Positions 2,481 to 8,250 of a DNA stretch of 8,250 nucleotides are shown here, piece by piece. Origin of the DNA: Verrucomicrobiales bacterium. Its GTDB lineage: Bacteria; Verrucomicrobiota; Verrucomicrobiia; Verrucomicrobiales; DEV007. The notes under the pieces were generated by a model that made no database searches, was not told the DNA's origin, and saw only the letters and a program-made list of their open reading frames with translations. The stretch is from positions 1-8,250 of the forward strand of contig JALRFZ010000245.1 of assembly GCA_023253615.1 (NCBI GenBank), read 5' to 3'. A program made the position numbers and the translations under genes. Position 1 is the stretch's first letter. Every line of letters starts with the position of its first letter.

Positions 2481-4229
2481 ATGTCGGATCAGGCGACCAT
2501 CGAAAAAGGATTTGAACGGGTGCTCGGCCTCATCGGGGAAGCCGCGGGGATGGACTTGCGCCAATCCGTCGACGTCACGGCGCTGCGCGAGCAGTTTTTC
2601 AACGGGGGCTCGCTGATCGATTGGATCCTCGATCACGTGGAGGTGCCGGAGAAGGATTTCGGCTCGAACCTCGCGGAGAAGCTCCATCTCACGTGGGAGG
2701 AGGACCCGCTCGTGGACACGGCCAACGCGGACATTCTCAAGGCGGCCTGTCCGCCGAATATCGCGATCAAACACCGCGCCTTGCTTCTGCGTGCCGAGCT
2801 GGGGGAAGGATCGGTGCGTCCGACGATGCTCGAGATCGCGCACTACGATCCCTTTTCCACGATCGATCGCCAGCTCGTGCGCCGGGCCGCGGGATGCCCG
2901 ATCAAGTGGGTGCTCTCGCCGCGGCGCAAGGTGCTGGCGGGCCTGCAGAAATTCTACGGGGTGGGTGGCGACATCTTCGACGACCTCCTCGCGAACCGCG
3001 ATTGGGACAGCGACGAATTCAGTTTCAAGGAAACGGTGAACGTCATCGACGACGAGGATGAAGAGGCCTCGGTGGTGAAATTCGTGAACCAGATCCTGAA
3101 CGAGGCGCTCAAACAACGGGCCACGGACATCCACATCGAGCCGATGCGGAACGACCTGCGCGTCCGCTACCGCGTCGACGGGGTGCTGCGCCGCGTGCCG
3201 GTGCCGGACAACATCGCCGCGCTGCAGAGCTCGGTGATCGCACGGGTGAAGCTGATGGCGGGGCTCGACATCGCGGAGAAACGCAAGCCGCAGGACGGAC
3301 GTATCGCCCTGCAGGTGGGCGGCCAGCCCATCGACACGCGGGTCGCGACGATCCCGGCGATCGAGGGCGAAAGCATCTCGCTGCGTCTCCTCGGTCAGGA
3401 GAAATTCACGATCGACCGCCTCGACATGTTCGGCGACTTGCGCAAGCAGATCGATGAGATCCTTTCCCGACCGAACGGGATCGTCCTCGTCACTGGTCCG
3501 ACGGGGTGCGGCAAATCGACGAGCCTTTTCTGTTTCCTCTCGGCCCTGAACTCCGAGGATACGAAGATCGTGACAATCGAGGACCCGGTGGAAAACCGGC
3601 TCGAAGGCGCGGTGCAGATCGCGGTGAAGCCGGAGATCAATCTGACTTTCGCCTCGGGTCTGCGCAGCATCCTGCGGGGTGATCCGAACGTGATCATGGT
3701 GGGGGAAATCCGCGACGTCGAGACGGCGGAAATCGCGGTGCAGGCGGCCCTGACCGGTCACCTGGTGTTCTCGACGCTGCACACGAACGACTCGGTCGGC
3801 GGCATCACGCGTCTCGTCGACATGGGGGTGGAGCCTTTCCTGATCGCGGCCTCGGTGCGTGCCTTCATCGCCCAGCGGCTCGTGCGGCGTCTCTGCCTCG
3901 AGTGCCGCGTGCCGGGCGGCGATTATTCGGAGGAGTTCCTCCGCTCGGTCGGTTTCCCGGTGCATCAGGCGGGCCGGATCTATTCGGTGAATCCCCATGG
4001 TTGCGACAGTTGCGGCCACACCGGCTACCGCGGACGGACGGCGGTCTACGAGCTCTTCCGCGTCACCGAAAAGGTGCAGGAGCTGATCGTCAGCGGGGCC
4101 TCGAAGCAGGACCTGCAGCGTCAGGGCATGCTCGACGGCTTCACGAACATGCGCGATTATGGCTGGCGCAAGGTGATCGAAGGCCACACCACGATCGAGG
4201 AGGTCGTCTCGTCGACCGAGCTCGGCTGA
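2481..4229 (+). CDS. gspE: Type II secretion system assembly ATPase GspE
   Basis: A 582-residue cytoplasmic hexameric ATPase that powers pseudopilus assembly. Residues 1 to about 160 form a GSPII_E N-terminal domain (PF05157-like), which normally docks to GspL. Then comes the N2 subdomain, with SVVKFVNQILNEAL and RATDIHIEP (213-221), and the RecA-like C-terminal domain. Walker A is GPTGCGKST (339-347), the Asp box is TIEDPVE (365-371), Walker B is VIMVGEIRD (404-412), and the His box is STLHTND (431-437). Two CxxC pairs (Cys 472/475 and 508/511) form the zinc-binding tetracysteine loop typical of GspE/PilB. All catalytic residues look intact. The ATG at 2481 is preferred over the TTG at 2427: it begins the homologous sequence, follows a candidate promoter, and has GGGAG at 2464-2468 as a weak, distant Shine-Dalgarno. 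PilB is the alternative, but the adjacent gspG supports type II secretion. A long minus-strand frame here is antisense shadow. Confidence 0.95.
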   Translation: MSDQATIEKGFERVLGLIGEAAGMDLRQSVDVTALREQFFNGGSLIDWILDHVEVPEKDFGSNLAEKLHLTWEEDPLVDTANADILKAACPPNIAIKHRALLLRAELGEGSVRPTMLEIAHYDPFSTIDRQLVRRAAGCPIKWVLSPRRKVLAGLQKFYGVGGDIFDDLLANRDWDSDEFSFKETVNVIDDEDEEASVVKFVNQILNEALKQRATDIHIEPMRNDLRVRYRVDGVLRRVPVPDNIAALQSSVIARVKLMAGLDIAEKRKPQDGRIALQVGGQPIDTRVATIPAIEGESISLRLLGQEKFTIDRLDMFGDLRKQIDEILSRPNGIVLVTGPTGCGKSTSLFCFLSALNSEDTKIVTIEDPVENRLEGAVQIAVKPEINLTFASGLRSILRGDPNVIMVGEIRDVETAEIAVQAALTGHLVFSTLHTNDSVGGITRLVDMGVEPFLIAASVRAFIAQRLVRRLCLECRVPGGDYSEEFLRSVGFPVHQAGRIYSVNPHGCDSCGHTGYRGRTAVYELFRVTEKVQELIVSGASKQDLQRQGMLDGFTNMRDYGWRKVIEGHTTIEEVVSSTELG

Positions 4230-4245
4230 TCCTCTCTTTTCCCCG

Positions 4246-5508
4246 ATGGCATCCTTCCGCTACAAGGTCCTGCAGAAGGATGGTTCGCTTTCCGAAGGCC
4301 ACCTCGATGCCTCGAGCCGGGGCGAAGCGACGCGGCGGCTCAACGAGCAGGGGAGCCGCGTCCTTTCCCTGACCGAGGAAAAGCAAAAGGTGGAGAAGAA
4401 AAAGTCCGGGAAGGAATCGACGCCTGACAAACCTGCGAAAAAGGCGGCCTCGGCTCCGGTGGAAAACCGGCTTTCCTCGAAACAGCTCGTGCAGTTCACC
4501 GAGGAGCTCAGCGATCTCCTCGCCGCCGGGGTGCAGCTCGATTCGGCGCTGCATTCGATCGGCAAACGCAGCGAATCGCCCGCGATCGCCCGGGTCGCCG
4601 CCTCCTGCCACGACAAGGTGCGCGACGGGGTGCCGCTCGCCACGGCCCTGCGTTTTTCCTCGCCGAGTTTCAACGAGCTGTATTGCAATCTCGTCTCGGC
4701 CGGCGAGGTCTCGGGGGCTCTGGGCGACATCCTGAAACGGCAGGTGAAGTACCTCAACACCCTCGCCGAGCTGAAGGGTAAGCTCGCCACGGCGTTGATC
4801 TACCCCTCGTTCCTCGTCGTCTCGGGCATCGCGGTGTCGGCGATGTTCACGTTTTTCCTGATTCCGAAACTGCGCCGTCTCGTGGAGTCCACCGGCGGGG
4901 AGCTGCCTCCGATCGCGCGATTGCTGCTCGGGTTGGGGGATTTCATGAAGGCCAACTGGGTCGCCCTGCTCGTGCTGCTGCTGATCGCGATCGTGATCAT
5001 TTTCGTGATGTTCCAGCGCGAGCCGACGAAACGCTGGTGGGACGAGGTGAAGCTGAAGCTGCCGTTGTTTGGGAAACTCCTCATCACGCGTTTCAACGTG
5101 CAATTCGTCGAGACGCTTTCGAATCTGCTCGTCAACGGGCTGCCGATCGTGCGGGCGCTCGAGCTGGTCGAGACGACGACCCCGAACCGCTACATCCGCG
5201 AGCAGATCCAGCAGATGCGGGGACGCGTCTCCGAGGGGGCCCTCTTGAACCGCTGCATGGAAAAGGCGGGCATTTTCGAATCGGGCCTCATCGACATGGT
5301 CCGCATCGGGGAGGATACCGGCCAGCTCGCTCCCTCGATGGCGAAGGCGGGCGACCGGCTCGACCGCGAATTCGGCCGCGCGATCGAGCGGATCGCCTCT
5401 GTCATCCAGCCGGCCATCATCCTGGTGATGTCGCTCATCGTGGGGTTGATGGCCTACATGATGATCTCGGTCATTTACGAAACCATTTCCGTCTTGCGGA
5501 ATCGCTGA
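4246..5508 (+). CDS. gspF: Type II secretion system inner-membrane platform protein GspF
   Basis: A 420-residue polytopic inner-membrane protein that couples GspE to pseudopilin insertion. The N-terminal cap, MASFRYKVLQKDGSLSEGHL with SSRGEATRRLNEQG, is standard for GspF/PilC. Two T2SSF domains (PF00482) follow at about 80-205 and 283-407; LSDLLAAGVQLDSAL and LSNLLVNGLPIVRALE are the matching repeats. Membrane segments lie at about 185-206, 237-256 and 388-410. Residues about 44-75 form an unusually Lys/Glu/Ala-rich charged linker between cap and first domain. The gene starts 16 bp after gspE; the spacer is pyrimidine-rich with no Shine-Dalgarno, so translational coupling to gspE is likely. 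The next gene, gspG, follows 22 bp downstream, so the cluster is almost certainly one transcript. Confidence 0.95.
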   Translation: MASFRYKVLQKDGSLSEGHLDASSRGEATRRLNEQGSRVLSLTEEKQKVEKKKSGKESTPDKPAKKAASAPVENRLSSKQLVQFTEELSDLLAAGVQLDSALHSIGKRSESPAIARVAASCHDKVRDGVPLATALRFSSPSFNELYCNLVSAGEVSGALGDILKRQVKYLNTLAELKGKLATALIYPSFLVVSGIAVSAMFTFFLIPKLRRLVESTGGELPPIARLLLGLGDFMKANWVALLVLLLIAIVIIFVMFQREPTKRWWDEVKLKLPLFGKLLITRFNVQFVETLSNLLVNGLPIVRALELVETTTPNRYIREQIQQMRGRVSEGALLNRCMEKAGIFESGLIDMVRIGEDTGQLAPSMAKAGDRLDREFGRAIERIASVIQPAIILVMSLIVGLMAYMMISVIYETISVLRNR

Positions 5509-5530
5509 ATCCTGTGGTACCGTCCCGAAC

Positions 5531-5956
5531 ATGAAAATTCACCGCTCGCGCCGCGCCAAGGGTTTCACGTTGATGGAGATGCTGCTCGTCCTCGGCATCA
5601 TCGCCCTCCTCGTGGGGATGGGCACCTTCATGATGGTCGACGTGCTCGGCGACGCGGAGGAAGGAAAGGCGAAGGCGGATCTCCAGACGCTGCGGGCGAA
5701 CCTGATCCGCTACAAGACCAAGGGAGGGCTCTATCCGACGACCGAGCAGGGGCTCGATTCGCTCGTCACCAAACCCAGCGACGGTCCCCAGCCGCGCAGC
5801 TACAAATCGCTGATGCAGAAGGAGGCCCTCCTCGATCCTTGGGGGAATCCCTACCAGTATCGCCGCCCCGGCAAACGCAATCCGGAGGAATTTGACATCT
5901 TCTCGATGGGCAAGGACGGCCAGGAAGGCACCGAGGATGACATCGGCAACTGGTGA
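5531..5956 (+). CDS. gspG: Type II secretion system major pseudopilin GspG
   Basis: A 141-residue type IV-like prepilin. The leader is short and basic (MKIHRSRRAKG, 1-11). Cleavage by the prepilin peptidase is expected between Gly 11 and Phe 12, with the conserved Glu at +5 (FTLME) and a hydrophobic helix to about residue 35. The GspG-specific globular part is clear: YPTTEQGLDSLVTKP (68-82), DPWGNPYQYRRPG (102-114), and FDIFSMGKDGQEGTEDDIGNW from 121 to the end. This last part is the acidic loop that binds calcium in known GspG structures. It forms the pseudopilus shaft. It identifies the cluster as type II secretion rather than type IV pili. No Shine-Dalgarno precedes the ATG, and no prepilin peptidase is in the window. 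The last 20 bases overlap the start of the next pseudopilin gene. Confidence 0.96.
   Translation: MKIHRSRRAKGFTLMEMLLVLGIIALLVGMGTFMMVDVLGDAEEGKAKADLQTLRANLIRYKTKGGLYPTTEQGLDSLVTKPSDGPQPRSYKSLMQKEALLDPWGNPYQYRRPGKRNPEEFDIFSMGKDGQEGTEDDIGNW
5922..5928 (+). promoter_or_regulatory. Shine-Dalgarno sequence deciding the gspH start
   Basis: AGGAAGG lies inside the end of gspG, eight bases before the ATG at 5937. It is the only strong ribosome binding site seen in the gsp cluster. It selects this ATG, which gives a normal short prepilin leader, over the upstream in-frame ATG at 5892. Confidence 0.55.
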
Positions 5957-6473
5957 AGGCCGGGCTCGAAGTGCCGCGGGCTTCACGCTCTTCGAAGTCC
6001 TCATCGTGCTCGCGATCATCGCGATGTTCACGGGGTTTTTCCTCCTCCGTTTCGACGACGGTGTCGCCGAGGAATCGCTGAACCAGGCCGCCACGGACCT
6101 CAAATCCGCCGCCCTGAAGGCCAAAAAGCGCGCCTACGCCTTTCGCCGCGACCAGTACATCGTCTTCAACCGGGGAGGTTTTGTGCTGACCGAGAGCCCT
6201 CCGGTGGCCGATGCCGCCCTGGCGATCGAACCGCGTCCCGAAAACCGGGGCGGGGTCTTCAACGAATCCTACCGGCTGCCTCCCGGGACGGAGATGCAAC
6301 TGATGCCGCCCGGCACCACGCGATGGACCGGCGAGCCCGGGATCTTCTGGACCTTCCGCAGCTCGGGTCTCAGTGATCCCCTGGCGGTGCGGTTCACCAT
6401 GGGCAAATCCTATGCGCGGCTCCAGTTCAATGTGCTGACGGGCCTGGCTGAGGAAGAGATCTTCATCGAGTGA
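5937..6473 (+). CDS. gspH: Type II secretion minor pseudopilin, GspH-like
   Basis: A 178-residue prepilin-like protein. The leader MTSATGEGRARSAAG (1-15) is followed by FTLFEVLIVLAIIAMFTGFF: predicted cleavage Gly 15/Phe 16, with Glu at +5. The region after the helix (QAATDLKSAALKAKKRAYAF, RRDQYIVFN) matches the GspH/FimT pattern, in which a long helix leads into a beta-rich head. The head ends in RLQFNVLTGLAEEEIFIE. Known GspH sits near the tip of the pseudopilus with GspI, J and K, none of which is visible downstream before the gene order changes. The chosen ATG overlaps the end of gspG by 20 bases and has AGGAAGG eight bases upstream, so it is translationally coupled. Assignment to GspH rather than another minor pseudopilin rests on position and length. 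Confidence 0.85.
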   Translation: MTSATGEGRARSAAGFTLFEVLIVLAIIAMFTGFFLLRFDDGVAEESLNQAATDLKSAALKAKKRAYAFRRDQYIVFNRGGFVLTESPPVADAALAIEPRPENRGGVFNESYRLPPGTEMQLMPPGTTRWTGEPGIFWTFRSSGLSDPLAVRFTMGKSYARLQFNVLTGLAEEEIFIE

Positions 6474-6571: not shown

Positions 6572-7402
6572 ATGCCTCTCGAAGACGACACGGAATCCCT
6601 GCCCTCGAGCGCTCTCGGAGCCCTCGACTTCCTCGTTGTCGAAGGCCTGAAACTGACCCGGCCGACGGCGGGCCGGGGATGGCGTCGACGGCGGGAGGAA
6701 CGCGTCCTCCTCGAGGATCTCTCCTTCACCGTGCAAAAGCGCCGCTCTTATGCCCTCGTCGGTGAGGATCGCGAGGCGCATTTCGCCCTGGCCGCGGCCT
6801 TGTTGAAGATCGGGCCGGCTGCCGCGGGATCGATCACCTTTGCGGGAATCCCCGTGCTGACGTTCGACAGCCAGCGTTTTCGCGCCGTGAGAAAGCGGAT
6901 CCAGGCCGTCTTCCCCGAGTCCTACGGGCAACTGCCTGCCGCCCTCACCGTGCGCGAGGCCTTCCGCGAGGTGCTCGGGGTGTGGTGCCGCCGCGCTTCG
7001 CGCGACGAAAAAGCCCGCCTCGTCGATGCGGTGATGATCGCCTGCGGGCTGCCCGAGGCGGTGCAGGATCTTTTTCCCGCCGAACTCGATGCGGTGGAGC
7101 GCCAGCAGGTCGCCCTCGCCCGCGCCCTGCTCCCCGGGCCCGAGCTGCTGATCTGCCAGGGCATCACCGAAGGCCTCGACGCGGTGCAGCGGGCCGAGCT
7201 TTGCAACCGCGTGCGCCATCTCCGCGAGGAGTTCCGGCTGACCTTGCTCGTTCTCGCCGATGATCTTGCGATGGCGCACCAATTGGGTGATGATATCGGC
7301 GTGCTCCATCGCGGTCGGCTCGTCGAACAAGGGCCGGCGTCCCGTTTGGTCAGTCGTCCCTCCCACGATCACACCCGCCGACTCGTCGCCGCCGCGGCCT
7401 GA
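6572..7402 (+). CDS. OppF/DppF-like ABC ATPase homologue with all catalytic motifs lost (pseudo-ATPase)
   Basis: A 276-residue protein with the full ABC nucleotide-binding-domain layout of oligopeptide-transporter ATPases, but no intact motif. The Walker A position reads VGEDREAHFA (63-72) where VGESGSGKST is expected: the Lys is His 70 and the glycines are gone. The Q-loop is VFPES (Pro 115 for Gln). The LSGGQ signature is LDAVE (172-176), still followed by RQQVALARAL. Walker B is LLICQG (192-197), with Gln 196 and Gly 197 in place of Asp and Glu. The switch His is Asp 230 in LADDLAM. The trailing IGVLHRGRLVEQGP is ordinary. The frame is intact, with the same GC-rich codon use as its neighbours, so it looks maintained rather than decayed. 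No permease gene adjoins it. It starts 98 bp after gspH and ends 14 bp before rodA, suggesting co-transcription with rodA. A scaffolding or regulatory role is inference. Confidence 0.85.
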   Translation: MPLEDDTESLPSSALGALDFLVVEGLKLTRPTAGRGWRRRREERVLLEDLSFTVQKRRSYALVGEDREAHFALAAALLKIGPAAAGSITFAGIPVLTFDSQRFRAVRKRIQAVFPESYGQLPAALTVREAFREVLGVWCRRASRDEKARLVDAVMIACGLPEAVQDLFPAELDAVERQQVALARALLPGPELLICQGITEGLDAVQRAELCNRVRHLREEFRLTLLVLADDLAMAHQLGDDIGVLHRGRLVEQGPASRLVSRPSHDHTRRLVAAAA

Positions 7403-7416
7403 GCCCCGAATCGACC

Positions 7417-8250
7417 ATGACCCCGCTCTTCCGAAAATTCCTGGGAATGAATTGGCTGCTCTTCGCCAATATCATCGCCTTGGCCATTTTCGGAATCTTC
7501 GCGATCTACAGCGCCTGCTGGATGCGCGAGGAGGCGCTCGCCACGAAGTGGCGCGAGCAGGTCTACTGGATGCTCCTCGGGCTCTTCTTCTTTTTCGCCG
7601 CCAGCCTCATCGACTACAAGTGGATCCGTTACCTCGGCATCCCGTTCTACCTGATCGCGACGGGGCTGCTCATCTTCACGACCTTCTTCGGAGTCGAGAT
7701 CAACGGCACGCGCGCCTGGCTCGATCTCGGGGTGATCCTCGTGCAGCCCTCGCAGCTCGCGATCGCCGGCGGTCTCGTCGTCCTCGCCCTCGCGATCAGT
7801 TCGCTCCACAAGCTGCATCCCATTTTCCGCAGCCCCTTCATCCGCCTGTTCGTGACCGGGTTCATCGCCCTCGTGCCTTTCGCTTTCGTGCTCCTGCAGG
7901 GCGACTTCGGTTCGGCCATCGTCTGGGTGCCGGTCTACGGGGCGATGGTGCTGATCGGCAACATCCCGATCCGCTACCTCGCCACGATCGTGCTCTGCGT
8001 GACGATGTTCCTGCCCTTCGCTTTCTTCTTCGGGCTGAAGGATTACCAGAAAAAGCGGATCACGACGCAGATCGAGATGTTGCAGGGCAAGAAGGTGAAC
8101 ATCCTCGCCGAGGCCTACAGCGCCTACAACAACCTCCTCGCGATCGGCAGCGGCGGATGGGGCGGCCCGGCGCCGGCGGGGGCGGCGGTCCGGCGACGTG
8201 CTGGAGGAGGTGATCGGAAGCCAGGCGGCGGTTTCACTCACCCTAGGAGG
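7417..8250 (+). CDS. rodA: Rod shape-determining protein RodA (SEDS glycosyltransferase), 5' part
   Basis: A polytopic membrane protein, open to the right window edge, that in characterised members polymerises lipid II into glycan strands with a class B PBP during elongation. Seen: NWLLFANIIALAIFGIFAIY (12-31, first membrane segment), a second segment around 50-65, GVEINGTRAWLDLGVILVQP (92-111), LLQGDFGSAIVWVPVYGAM (159-177), and AYNNLLAIGSGG (236-247). These match SEDS landmarks NGxRxWL, QPSE, LLQPDLGT and AIGSGG, but with QPSQ for QPSE and QGDFGS for QPDLGT. The conserved Asp of the HTDF-type motif lies beyond the window. From about residue 250 (8164 onward) the translation becomes Pro/Ala/Gly/Arg-rich and the expected GKG-x-GTQ region is not found, suggesting a frame error or poor sequence at the end. 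The ATG at 7417 has no Shine-Dalgarno; the ATG at 7447 is an alternative start. Confidence 0.85.
   Translation, partial: MTPLFRKFLGMNWLLFANIIALAIFGIFAIYSACWMREEALATKWREQVYWMLLGLFFFFAASLIDYKWIRYLGIPFYLIATGLLIFTTFFGVEINGTRAWLDLGVILVQPSQLAIAGGLVVLALAISSLHKLHPIFRSPFIRLFVTGFIALVPFAFVLLQGDFGSAIVWVPVYGAMVLIGNIPIRYLATIVLCVTMFLPFAFFFGLKDYQKKRITTQIEMLQGKKVNILAEAYSAYNNLLAIGSGGWGGPAPAGAAVRRRAGGGDRKPGGGFTHPRR

Follow-up and report, generated by a model that had tools for sequence, protein, structure and literature searches.

An intact ABC pseudo-ATPase encoded directly upstream of rodA in Verrucomicrobiales

The window analysed here, an 8,250-nucleotide stretch of DNA from a Verrucomicrobiales bacterium (assembly GCA_023253615.1, contig JALRFZ010000245.1), encodes an ABC protein of the OppF/DppF type in which, judging from alignments, all ATPase motifs have been replaced while the reading frame is intact. 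The protein is no lone decayed copy but one of a family of degenerate ABC proteins, and the constant neighbour of its gene is rodA. All motifs have been lost, yet the gene is under selection and new motifs have become fixed; for this reason we favour, with moderate confidence, the view that the protein serves the RodA encoded directly downstream, as a subunit or regulator without catalytic activity. ABC proteins are defined by the ATP sandwich, and a full-length member that persists under selection without any catalytic motif would be an ABC-superfamily pseudoenzyme with a new gene partner. In the following, g1 and f1 denote the genus and the family of the window; these codes are internal to the analysis.

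Domain assignment and motif census

The 276-codon frame of the pseudo-ATPase contains no stop codon and no frameshift, and its product scores above the gathering cut-off of the ABC profile PF00005 (32.4 versus 25 bits). The best NCBIfam models, YejF, DppF-type and NikE, all score far below their cut-offs (132.4 versus 834, 116.1 versus 408 and 105.6 versus 332.55 bits, respectively), as does one further model (104.3 versus 540 bits), so that no OppF/DppF equivalog or subfamily cut-off is reached. A profile search for the C-terminal oligo_HPY region (PF08352) found no match in the window protein. The best sequence matches in the PDB were DppD and Rv1281c of M. tuberculosis (Mtb) and OppF and DppF of E. 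coli. AlphaFold2 predicts an ABC fold with high confidence (mean pLDDT 92.2, pTM 0.88); in Foldseek, E. coli OppF and DppF were the best matches to the predicted structure, and MetN, OppF and PhnK headed the list in a second structural comparison. Profile score and predicted fold both place the protein among the ABC nucleotide-binding domains, in agreement with the initial annotation, which had described an intact frame with an OppF/DppF-type domain.

We set the motif positions by alignment to Mtb DppD and to canonical relatives (Table 1). The five replacements that had been read from the sequence (His70, Pro115, LDAVE, Gln196-Gly197 and Asp230) fell at the same positions in these alignments. 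The protein thus has neither the Walker A pattern GxxGxGK[ST] nor the LSGGQ signature, nor the Walker B, Q-loop and switch residues of a catalytic ABC ATPase.

Table 1. Features of the window, in positions of the 8,250-nucleotide stretch
Feature	Position	Strand	Basis
gspE, gspF, gspG and gspH-like pseudopilin gene (upstream neighbours)	2481..6473	+	profile matches
rodA-linked ABC pseudo-ATPase, OppF/DppF-type nucleotide-binding domain, 276 aa	6572..7402	+	ORF, PF00005, motif alignment, AlphaFold2, PDB fold match
Former Walker A, residues 64-71, GEDREAHF (canonical GESGSGKS/T), Lys to His70	6761..6784	+	alignment, census
Former Q-loop Gln, now Pro115	6914..6916	+	alignment; census Pro 53, Ser 27, Ala 3, Gly 1 (84 filled)
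Former signature LSGGQ, now LDAVE (172-176)	7085..7099	+	alignment, census
Former Walker B Asp-Glu, now Gln196-Gly197	7157..7162	+	alignment, census
Former switch His, now Asp230	7259..7261	+	alignment, census
rodA (SEDS glycosyltransferase)	7417..8250	+	PF01098, TIGR02210; blastn to G014 ends at 8165

A protein search with the pseudo-ATPase yielded 589 matches, the best 120 of which were listed. The first 85 of these had 47-91% identity over 56-100% of the query, and they were followed by canonical ATPases and one more degenerate relative, P0087 (44% identity). Close relatives occur in records labelled Akkermansiaceae bacterium UBA5020 and Verrucomicrobiales bacterium. For a census of the motif positions we compared the 85 degenerate relatives with 45 canonical sequences, comprising 34 of the listed matches (P0086, P0088-P0120) and 11 locus sequences; P0087, which has LDAME in the signature and Gly at the switch position, and 469 of the 589 matches were omitted.

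The 45 canonical relatives without exception retain the Ser-Gly-Gly-Gln of the signature, the switch His, the catalytic Glu and the Q-loop Gln. In the degenerate relatives, the replacements are themselves conserved: the switch position has Asp in 85 of 85 rows versus His in 45 of 45, the signature positions have Asp173 in 84, Ala174 in 80, Val175 in 79 and Glu176 in 84 of 85. Where canonical proteins have the catalytic Glu, 74 of the 85 have Gly, and none of the 84 rows filled at the Q-loop position retains the Gln, which has given way to Pro, Ser, Ala or Gly. Position 196 is more variable: His is the most frequent residue (46 of 85), 10 rows have Gln and 3 still have the Asp. Further residues newly fixed in the 85 are Phe131 (100%), Trp138 (99%), Glu162 (100%) and Glu209 (100% of filled rows). 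Since 85 protein clusters and further genomes show replacements at the same sites, chance or sequencing error can be excluded, and the degenerate proteins constitute a family.

Walker A behaves differently. Its Lys is kept in 34 of 83 rows (about 40%) and replaced by Leu in 35, so the loss of Lys70 in the window protein is a trait of only part of the family; the proposed loss at all five sites therefore holds for the window protein, but not, as far as this Lys is concerned, for its relatives at large. In the clade of the window, the Lys and the Gly preceding it are both gone, and the residue after the Lys is Ser in only 4 and Thr in only 2 of the 85 rows. Arg or Lys at position 67 is found in 36 of 48 sequences without Lys70 versus 13 of 34 with it, a difference that is confounded by kinship and merely suggestive of a compensation for Lys70 loss within the P-loop.

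Gene neighbourhood and co-occurrence with RodA

In all 22 g1 genomes that carry it, the pseudo-ATPase gene lies directly 5' of rodA on the same strand, at a distance of 3-28 bp in each of the 10 g1 loci, out of 11, in which the gap was resolved; in the window, rodA starts 14 bases past the pseudo-ATPase stop codon. One genome, G009, has only the C-terminal half of the gene, at a contig end. Outside g1, 12 other degenerate copies of family f1 retrieved with the ABC search and a further one retrieved from the rodA side (G079) also precede rodA, with gaps of up to about 310 bp.

The product of the window rodA resembles RodA to about residue 250, and the match stops short of the final ~85 bases of the contig. 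These bases, positions 8166-8250, are unlike the rodA of the close relative G014, yet the frame remains open throughout. This mismatching end is likely a contig-end artefact, in which case the window rodA has been truncated by the assembly.

In the loci compared, neither of the other neighbours is a conserved partner. The type II secretion genes upstream of the pseudo-ATPase, to which the initial annotation had also linked it, are present in just 4 of 13 g1 loci (the window and 12 fetched loci), namely those of the window genome, G014, G010 and G001, and we therefore rejected this link; the other g1 loci have different upstream genes, often one on the opposite strand that we take, from its sequence, to be moaA-like. 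Downstream of rodA, g1 genomes have a GldA/GldF/GldG-like ABC-2 transporter operon, which encodes an ABC ATPase and an ABC-2 permease together with a protein with a weak ABC_transp_aux match, a DUF4340 protein and a cytochrome c. The statement that no permease is adjacent is thus correct for the window, but g1 does have an ABC-2 transporter operon with its own ATPase after rodA. In the stretches fetched for 11 ABC-rodA loci of other genera, which extend 1.8-4 kb beyond the start of rodA, we did not find this operon after rodA, and the same was true of the downstream sequence of G040 and G042; as far as these stretches reach, it follows rodA in g1 only and was rejected as a conserved partner as well.

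Among 33 g1 genomes, 22 have both the pseudo-ATPase and RodA, 3 have RodA only, 8 have neither and none has the pseudo-ATPase only. Five of the 8 genomes with neither gene are just 52-77% complete. When only the 23 genomes of at least 90% completeness are considered, 18 have both, 2 RodA only, 3 neither and none the pseudo-ATPase only. This co-occurrence corresponds to a Fisher p of 0.0056, uncorrected for kinship, which rises to about 0.04 if a C-terminal RodA remnant in G013 is counted as RodA. In the locus of this genome (L157), the ABC gene and residues 1-294 of RodA are gone, and the remnant is flanked by the moaA-like gene and the downstream operon. As neighbouring genes may be lost in one deletion, such co-loss supports a functional link without proving it.

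The three near-complete genomes with neither gene (G011, G013, G020) have no MreB match above the cut-off, but PBP2-type matches above the cut-off persist in all three, and we rejected loss of the whole elongasome as an explanation. MreB likewise does not reach the cut-off in G015, in G017 and in the genome of the window; in this last genome it is divided between contigs.

RodA occurs without the pseudo-ATPase in G018, where rodA starts at a contig edge, and in G040 and G042, which are 2 of the 20 near-complete g1 genomes with RodA. A gene that we assume from its sequence to be thiG-like takes the place of the ABC gene as the frame nearest to rodA on its 5' side in several related genera and one other family (L134-L139, L142, L144, L145, L150-L152), and some related genera have yet another gene there. 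These genera and the two g1 genomes indicate that the ABC gene is dispensable in some lineages.

Canonical orthologues and stages of motif loss

Three other families of the order have, directly before rodA, a gene for an ATPase that is short, OppF-like and canonical in its motifs, as seen in the first 6 genomes. A wider draw gave matches at an E-value of 1e-90 or better in 40 of 112 genomes, some of them to longer OppF-type copies. Of these, we checked the loci of the best 30 matches (L158-L187): all 30 have canonical motifs by regular expression, and 29 have the gene directly before rodA, the thirtieth ending at a contig edge. The gap to rodA is 25-118 bp in 6 loci; in G051, a canonical member is located away from rodA. 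By eye, we recognised no ABC permease beside the canonical rodA-linked copies. Among the open-licence papers listed by targeted searches there was no report of a pair of an ABC gene and rodA; the canonical ATPase and rodA apparently represent an undescribed conserved pair in their own right.

Longer-frame copies in the order share about 58-60% identity with the canonical rodA-linked orthologue, and the G010 copy among them has an OppF-type profile that includes oligo_HPY. For the rodA-linked form, a search of one canonical orthologue gave an oligo_HPY match over positions 1-26 of 65 only, just below the cut-off. Separately, an OppF-like ABC frame on another contig of the window genome (C317, L190:4043-5434) continues into MbhD and MbhE domains and represents a chimeric contig or an odd fusion.

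A mixture-model IQ-TREE phylogeny of 53 rows recovers the 34 degenerate rows as one clade (support 95/98). This clade is nested in a larger one of 42 rows (96/85), which also holds the canonical rodA-linked proteins. In an earlier FastTree run (LG), the degenerate clade had fallen outside the group of canonical rodA-linked proteins; this run included P0085 and P0087, which were omitted from the IQ-TREE analysis, and the partial gene of G009 was left out of the tree. Because long branches are involved, we prefer the mixture-model tree. By position before rodA and by nesting in this tree, the window gene belongs to the rodA-linked short ABC lineage as we define it here. The initial annotation had reasoned that orthologues with canonical Walker motifs would point to a lineage-specific decaying copy. 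Such orthologues do exist in other families, but their existence is no proof of decay, since the degenerate proteins make up a single clade in which new motifs have become fixed.

Genera of f1 display intermediate stages of the motif loss, in copies that all precede rodA. At one end, G078 has canonical motifs, again before rodA. In G079, Walker A, the Q-loop Gln, the Walker B Asp and the switch His are intact, while the signature is LAHGQ and the catalytic Glu has become Asp. Three genomes of genus g26 share these changes and in addition have Gln to Ser and His to Arg. The four genomes of g15 and g23 keep the switch His and have lost the Ser/Thr of Walker A (to Met), the Q-loop Gln (to Pro or Ala) and the Walker B Asp (to His); in the four genomes of g18, the Walker A Lys has become Thr, with the switch His kept in two. 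In g16 (G070), the switch His has changed to Asp and the catalytic Glu is still there. In the window's own genus, g1, all 21 rows have Asp at the switch position, and the signature reads LDAVE in 17 of them.

Counted by hand in the alignment, the signature is altered in all 34 degenerate rows. The Q-loop Gln has been replaced in 33 of them and the catalytic Glu in 31 (it remains Glu in G070, G073 and G004); 27 rows have lost the Walker B Asp, 27 the switch His and only 14 the Walker A Lys. This Lys has been lost more than once, to Thr in g18 and in several lines within g1. The order of loss is read here from living states rather than from an ancestral reconstruction. As canonical, half-degenerate and fully degenerate orthologues share their place before rodA, the order in which an ABC ATPase can shed its parts, and which of these it retains, is open to experiment. 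The RodA-linked ABC lineage, whose living members preserve stages of a catalytic retirement, is apparently undescribed as well.

Selection, possible roles and comparison with known systems

We estimated dN/dS (NG86) from the three closest pairs, with dS of 0.38-0.79. The values for the pseudo-ATPase were 0.130 (G000-G014), 0.111 (G014-G010) and 0.136 (G000-G010); for RodA, the same pairs gave 0.055, 0.028 and 0.065, and for the ATPase downstream of rodA the sole pair compared (G014-G010) gave 0.064. The pseudo-ATPase values are thus 2-4 times those of RodA and, in one pair, 1.7 times that of the downstream ATPase. Purifying selection acts on the gene, but constrains it less tightly than its neighbours. 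No stop codon lies inside the frame in any of 35 family matches; two stops counted in G012 and G086 sit 5' of the start codon, outside the frame. Selection for a non-catalytic role, as originally proposed, is borne out by these ratios, by the replacement motifs fixed throughout the family and by the confidently predicted ABC fold. The neutral dN/dS that would have indicated a lineage-specific decaying copy was not what we measured, and together with the motif census the ratios disfavour a lone copy of this kind.

A slow form of decay, in which a dispensable ATPase is being eroded and the frame has stayed intact so far as a mere matter of time, would be compatible with the higher dN/dS relative to RodA, with the drift of Walker A and with the absence of the gene from G040 and G042, which keep RodA. 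We nevertheless consider it unlikely, given ratios of 0.11-0.14, the lack of in-frame stops and the fixation of new residues over 85 sequences with identities to the window protein down to 47%.

Asymmetric ABC dimers are known, and with an ABC-2 transporter operon 3' of rodA in g1, the pseudo-ATPase might be the degenerate partner in a heterodimeric ABC transporter, the other half being a canonical ATPase such as the one downstream of rodA, or OppD. ABC dimers combine a Walker side and a signature side in each composite ATP site. Since both sides are gone from the pseudo-ATPase, a working ATP site with any partner is unlikely, and neither composite site would function with a canonical partner. 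Further, the ABC-2 operon was not found in the downstream stretches searched at the 11 other ABC-rodA loci and in G040 and G042, and no ABC permease was recognised by eye beside the canonical rodA-linked copies. G010 keeps a separate Opp-type operon encoding a permease, a solute-binding protein and two ABC ATPases with oligo_HPY, so that the rodA-linked copy is not needed as an importer's ATPase. The pseudo-ATPase is therefore probably not an importer's ATPase, and a heterodimeric transporter also seems improbable.

The protein might also be a sensor whose pocket has kept, in modified form, an ability to bind a nucleotide or some other ligand, as the members that keep the Walker A Lys (34 of 83) would suggest; we regard this as quite unlikely, because the clade of the window lacks this Lys and the preceding Gly, and Ser or Thr hardly ever follows the Lys position in the family. 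It is very improbable that the gene serves mainly as a leader cistron whose translation, coupled to that of rodA across the short gaps seen in g1 (3-28 bp in 10 loci, 14 bases in the window) and in the 6 canonical loci (25-118 bp), sets the level of RodA with the protein being secondary, as coupling alone would not require the selection on amino acids such as Phe131, Trp138, Asp173, Glu176 and Asp230.

For the non-catalytic RodA partner that we prefer, the link to RodA is supported by the synteny seen in several families and by the pattern in which the two genes occur together or are missing; the initial annotation had suggested a scaffold or regulator linked to RodA, and the pseudo-ATPase may indeed be one. 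By analogy to PhnK/PhnL, which remodel C-P lyase, and to FtsE, the canonical ABC protein would dock on RodA or on RodA-PBP2 and switch RodA with ATP. In the lineage of the window, the nucleotide switch would have been dismantled and the docking role retained, so that the pseudo-ATPase would now hold or modulate RodA without a nucleotide. Evolutionary rates of the ABC protein and RodA did not covary significantly (Spearman 0.29, p 0.22; Pearson 0.53; 11 genomes, 19 branches, 7 genes), and the enrichment of newly fixed residues on the helical subdomain, which would face a membrane partner, was not significant either (10 of 29 versus 56 of 240, p 0.10).

A more specific and rather doubtful proposal is that the RodA of Verrucomicrobiales has a dedicated ABC subunit, an ATP-gating ATPase in several families and, in the family of the window, a stepwise-dismantled, nucleotide-free clamp. 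Here the acidic LDAVE loop of one protomer would replace ATP, pairing with the basic P-loop of the other. If true, this would make the protein a new component of the elongasome and its lineage a living record of the transition from ATPase to pseudo-ATPase. The canonical version also points to the possibility that several families of the order possess a new ATP-linked regulator of RodA.

Among known systems, the pseudo-ATPase resembles the ATPases of OppF/DppF importers most in fold and sequence, with the E. coli proteins among its best PDB matches. It differs from them in that the rodA-linked form is short, lacking most or all of the C-terminal oligo_HPY region, and in that the window gene lies outside an opp operon, is not encoded together with an Opp/Dpp permease and has its catalytic motifs replaced. 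In asymmetric ABC transporters, a degenerate site loses some catalytic residues while one composite site still works; this loss is partial, whereas in the pseudo-ATPase all five motifs are lost on one polypeptide and no permease is adjacent. FtsE of the FtsEX system is an ABC ATPase that serves cell-wall remodelling rather than transport. It shares with the pseudo-ATPase the proposed cell-wall role of an ABC protein, and differs in being catalytic and in having its own membrane partner, FtsX.

PhnK and PhnL of the C-P lyase are ABC proteins that ride on an enzyme with no permease involved, and both are reported to require ATP binding and hydrolysis in vivo (PMC9947105). They have the same fold as the pseudo-ATPase, and PhnK is among its closest structural matches; the sequence identity is about 21%. 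The parallel to PhnK/PhnL- and FtsE-type proteins that serve an enzyme is, for the pseudo-ATPase, drawn from the adjacency of its gene to rodA. On this account PhnK and PhnL need ATP, while the pseudo-ATPase has lost the motifs.
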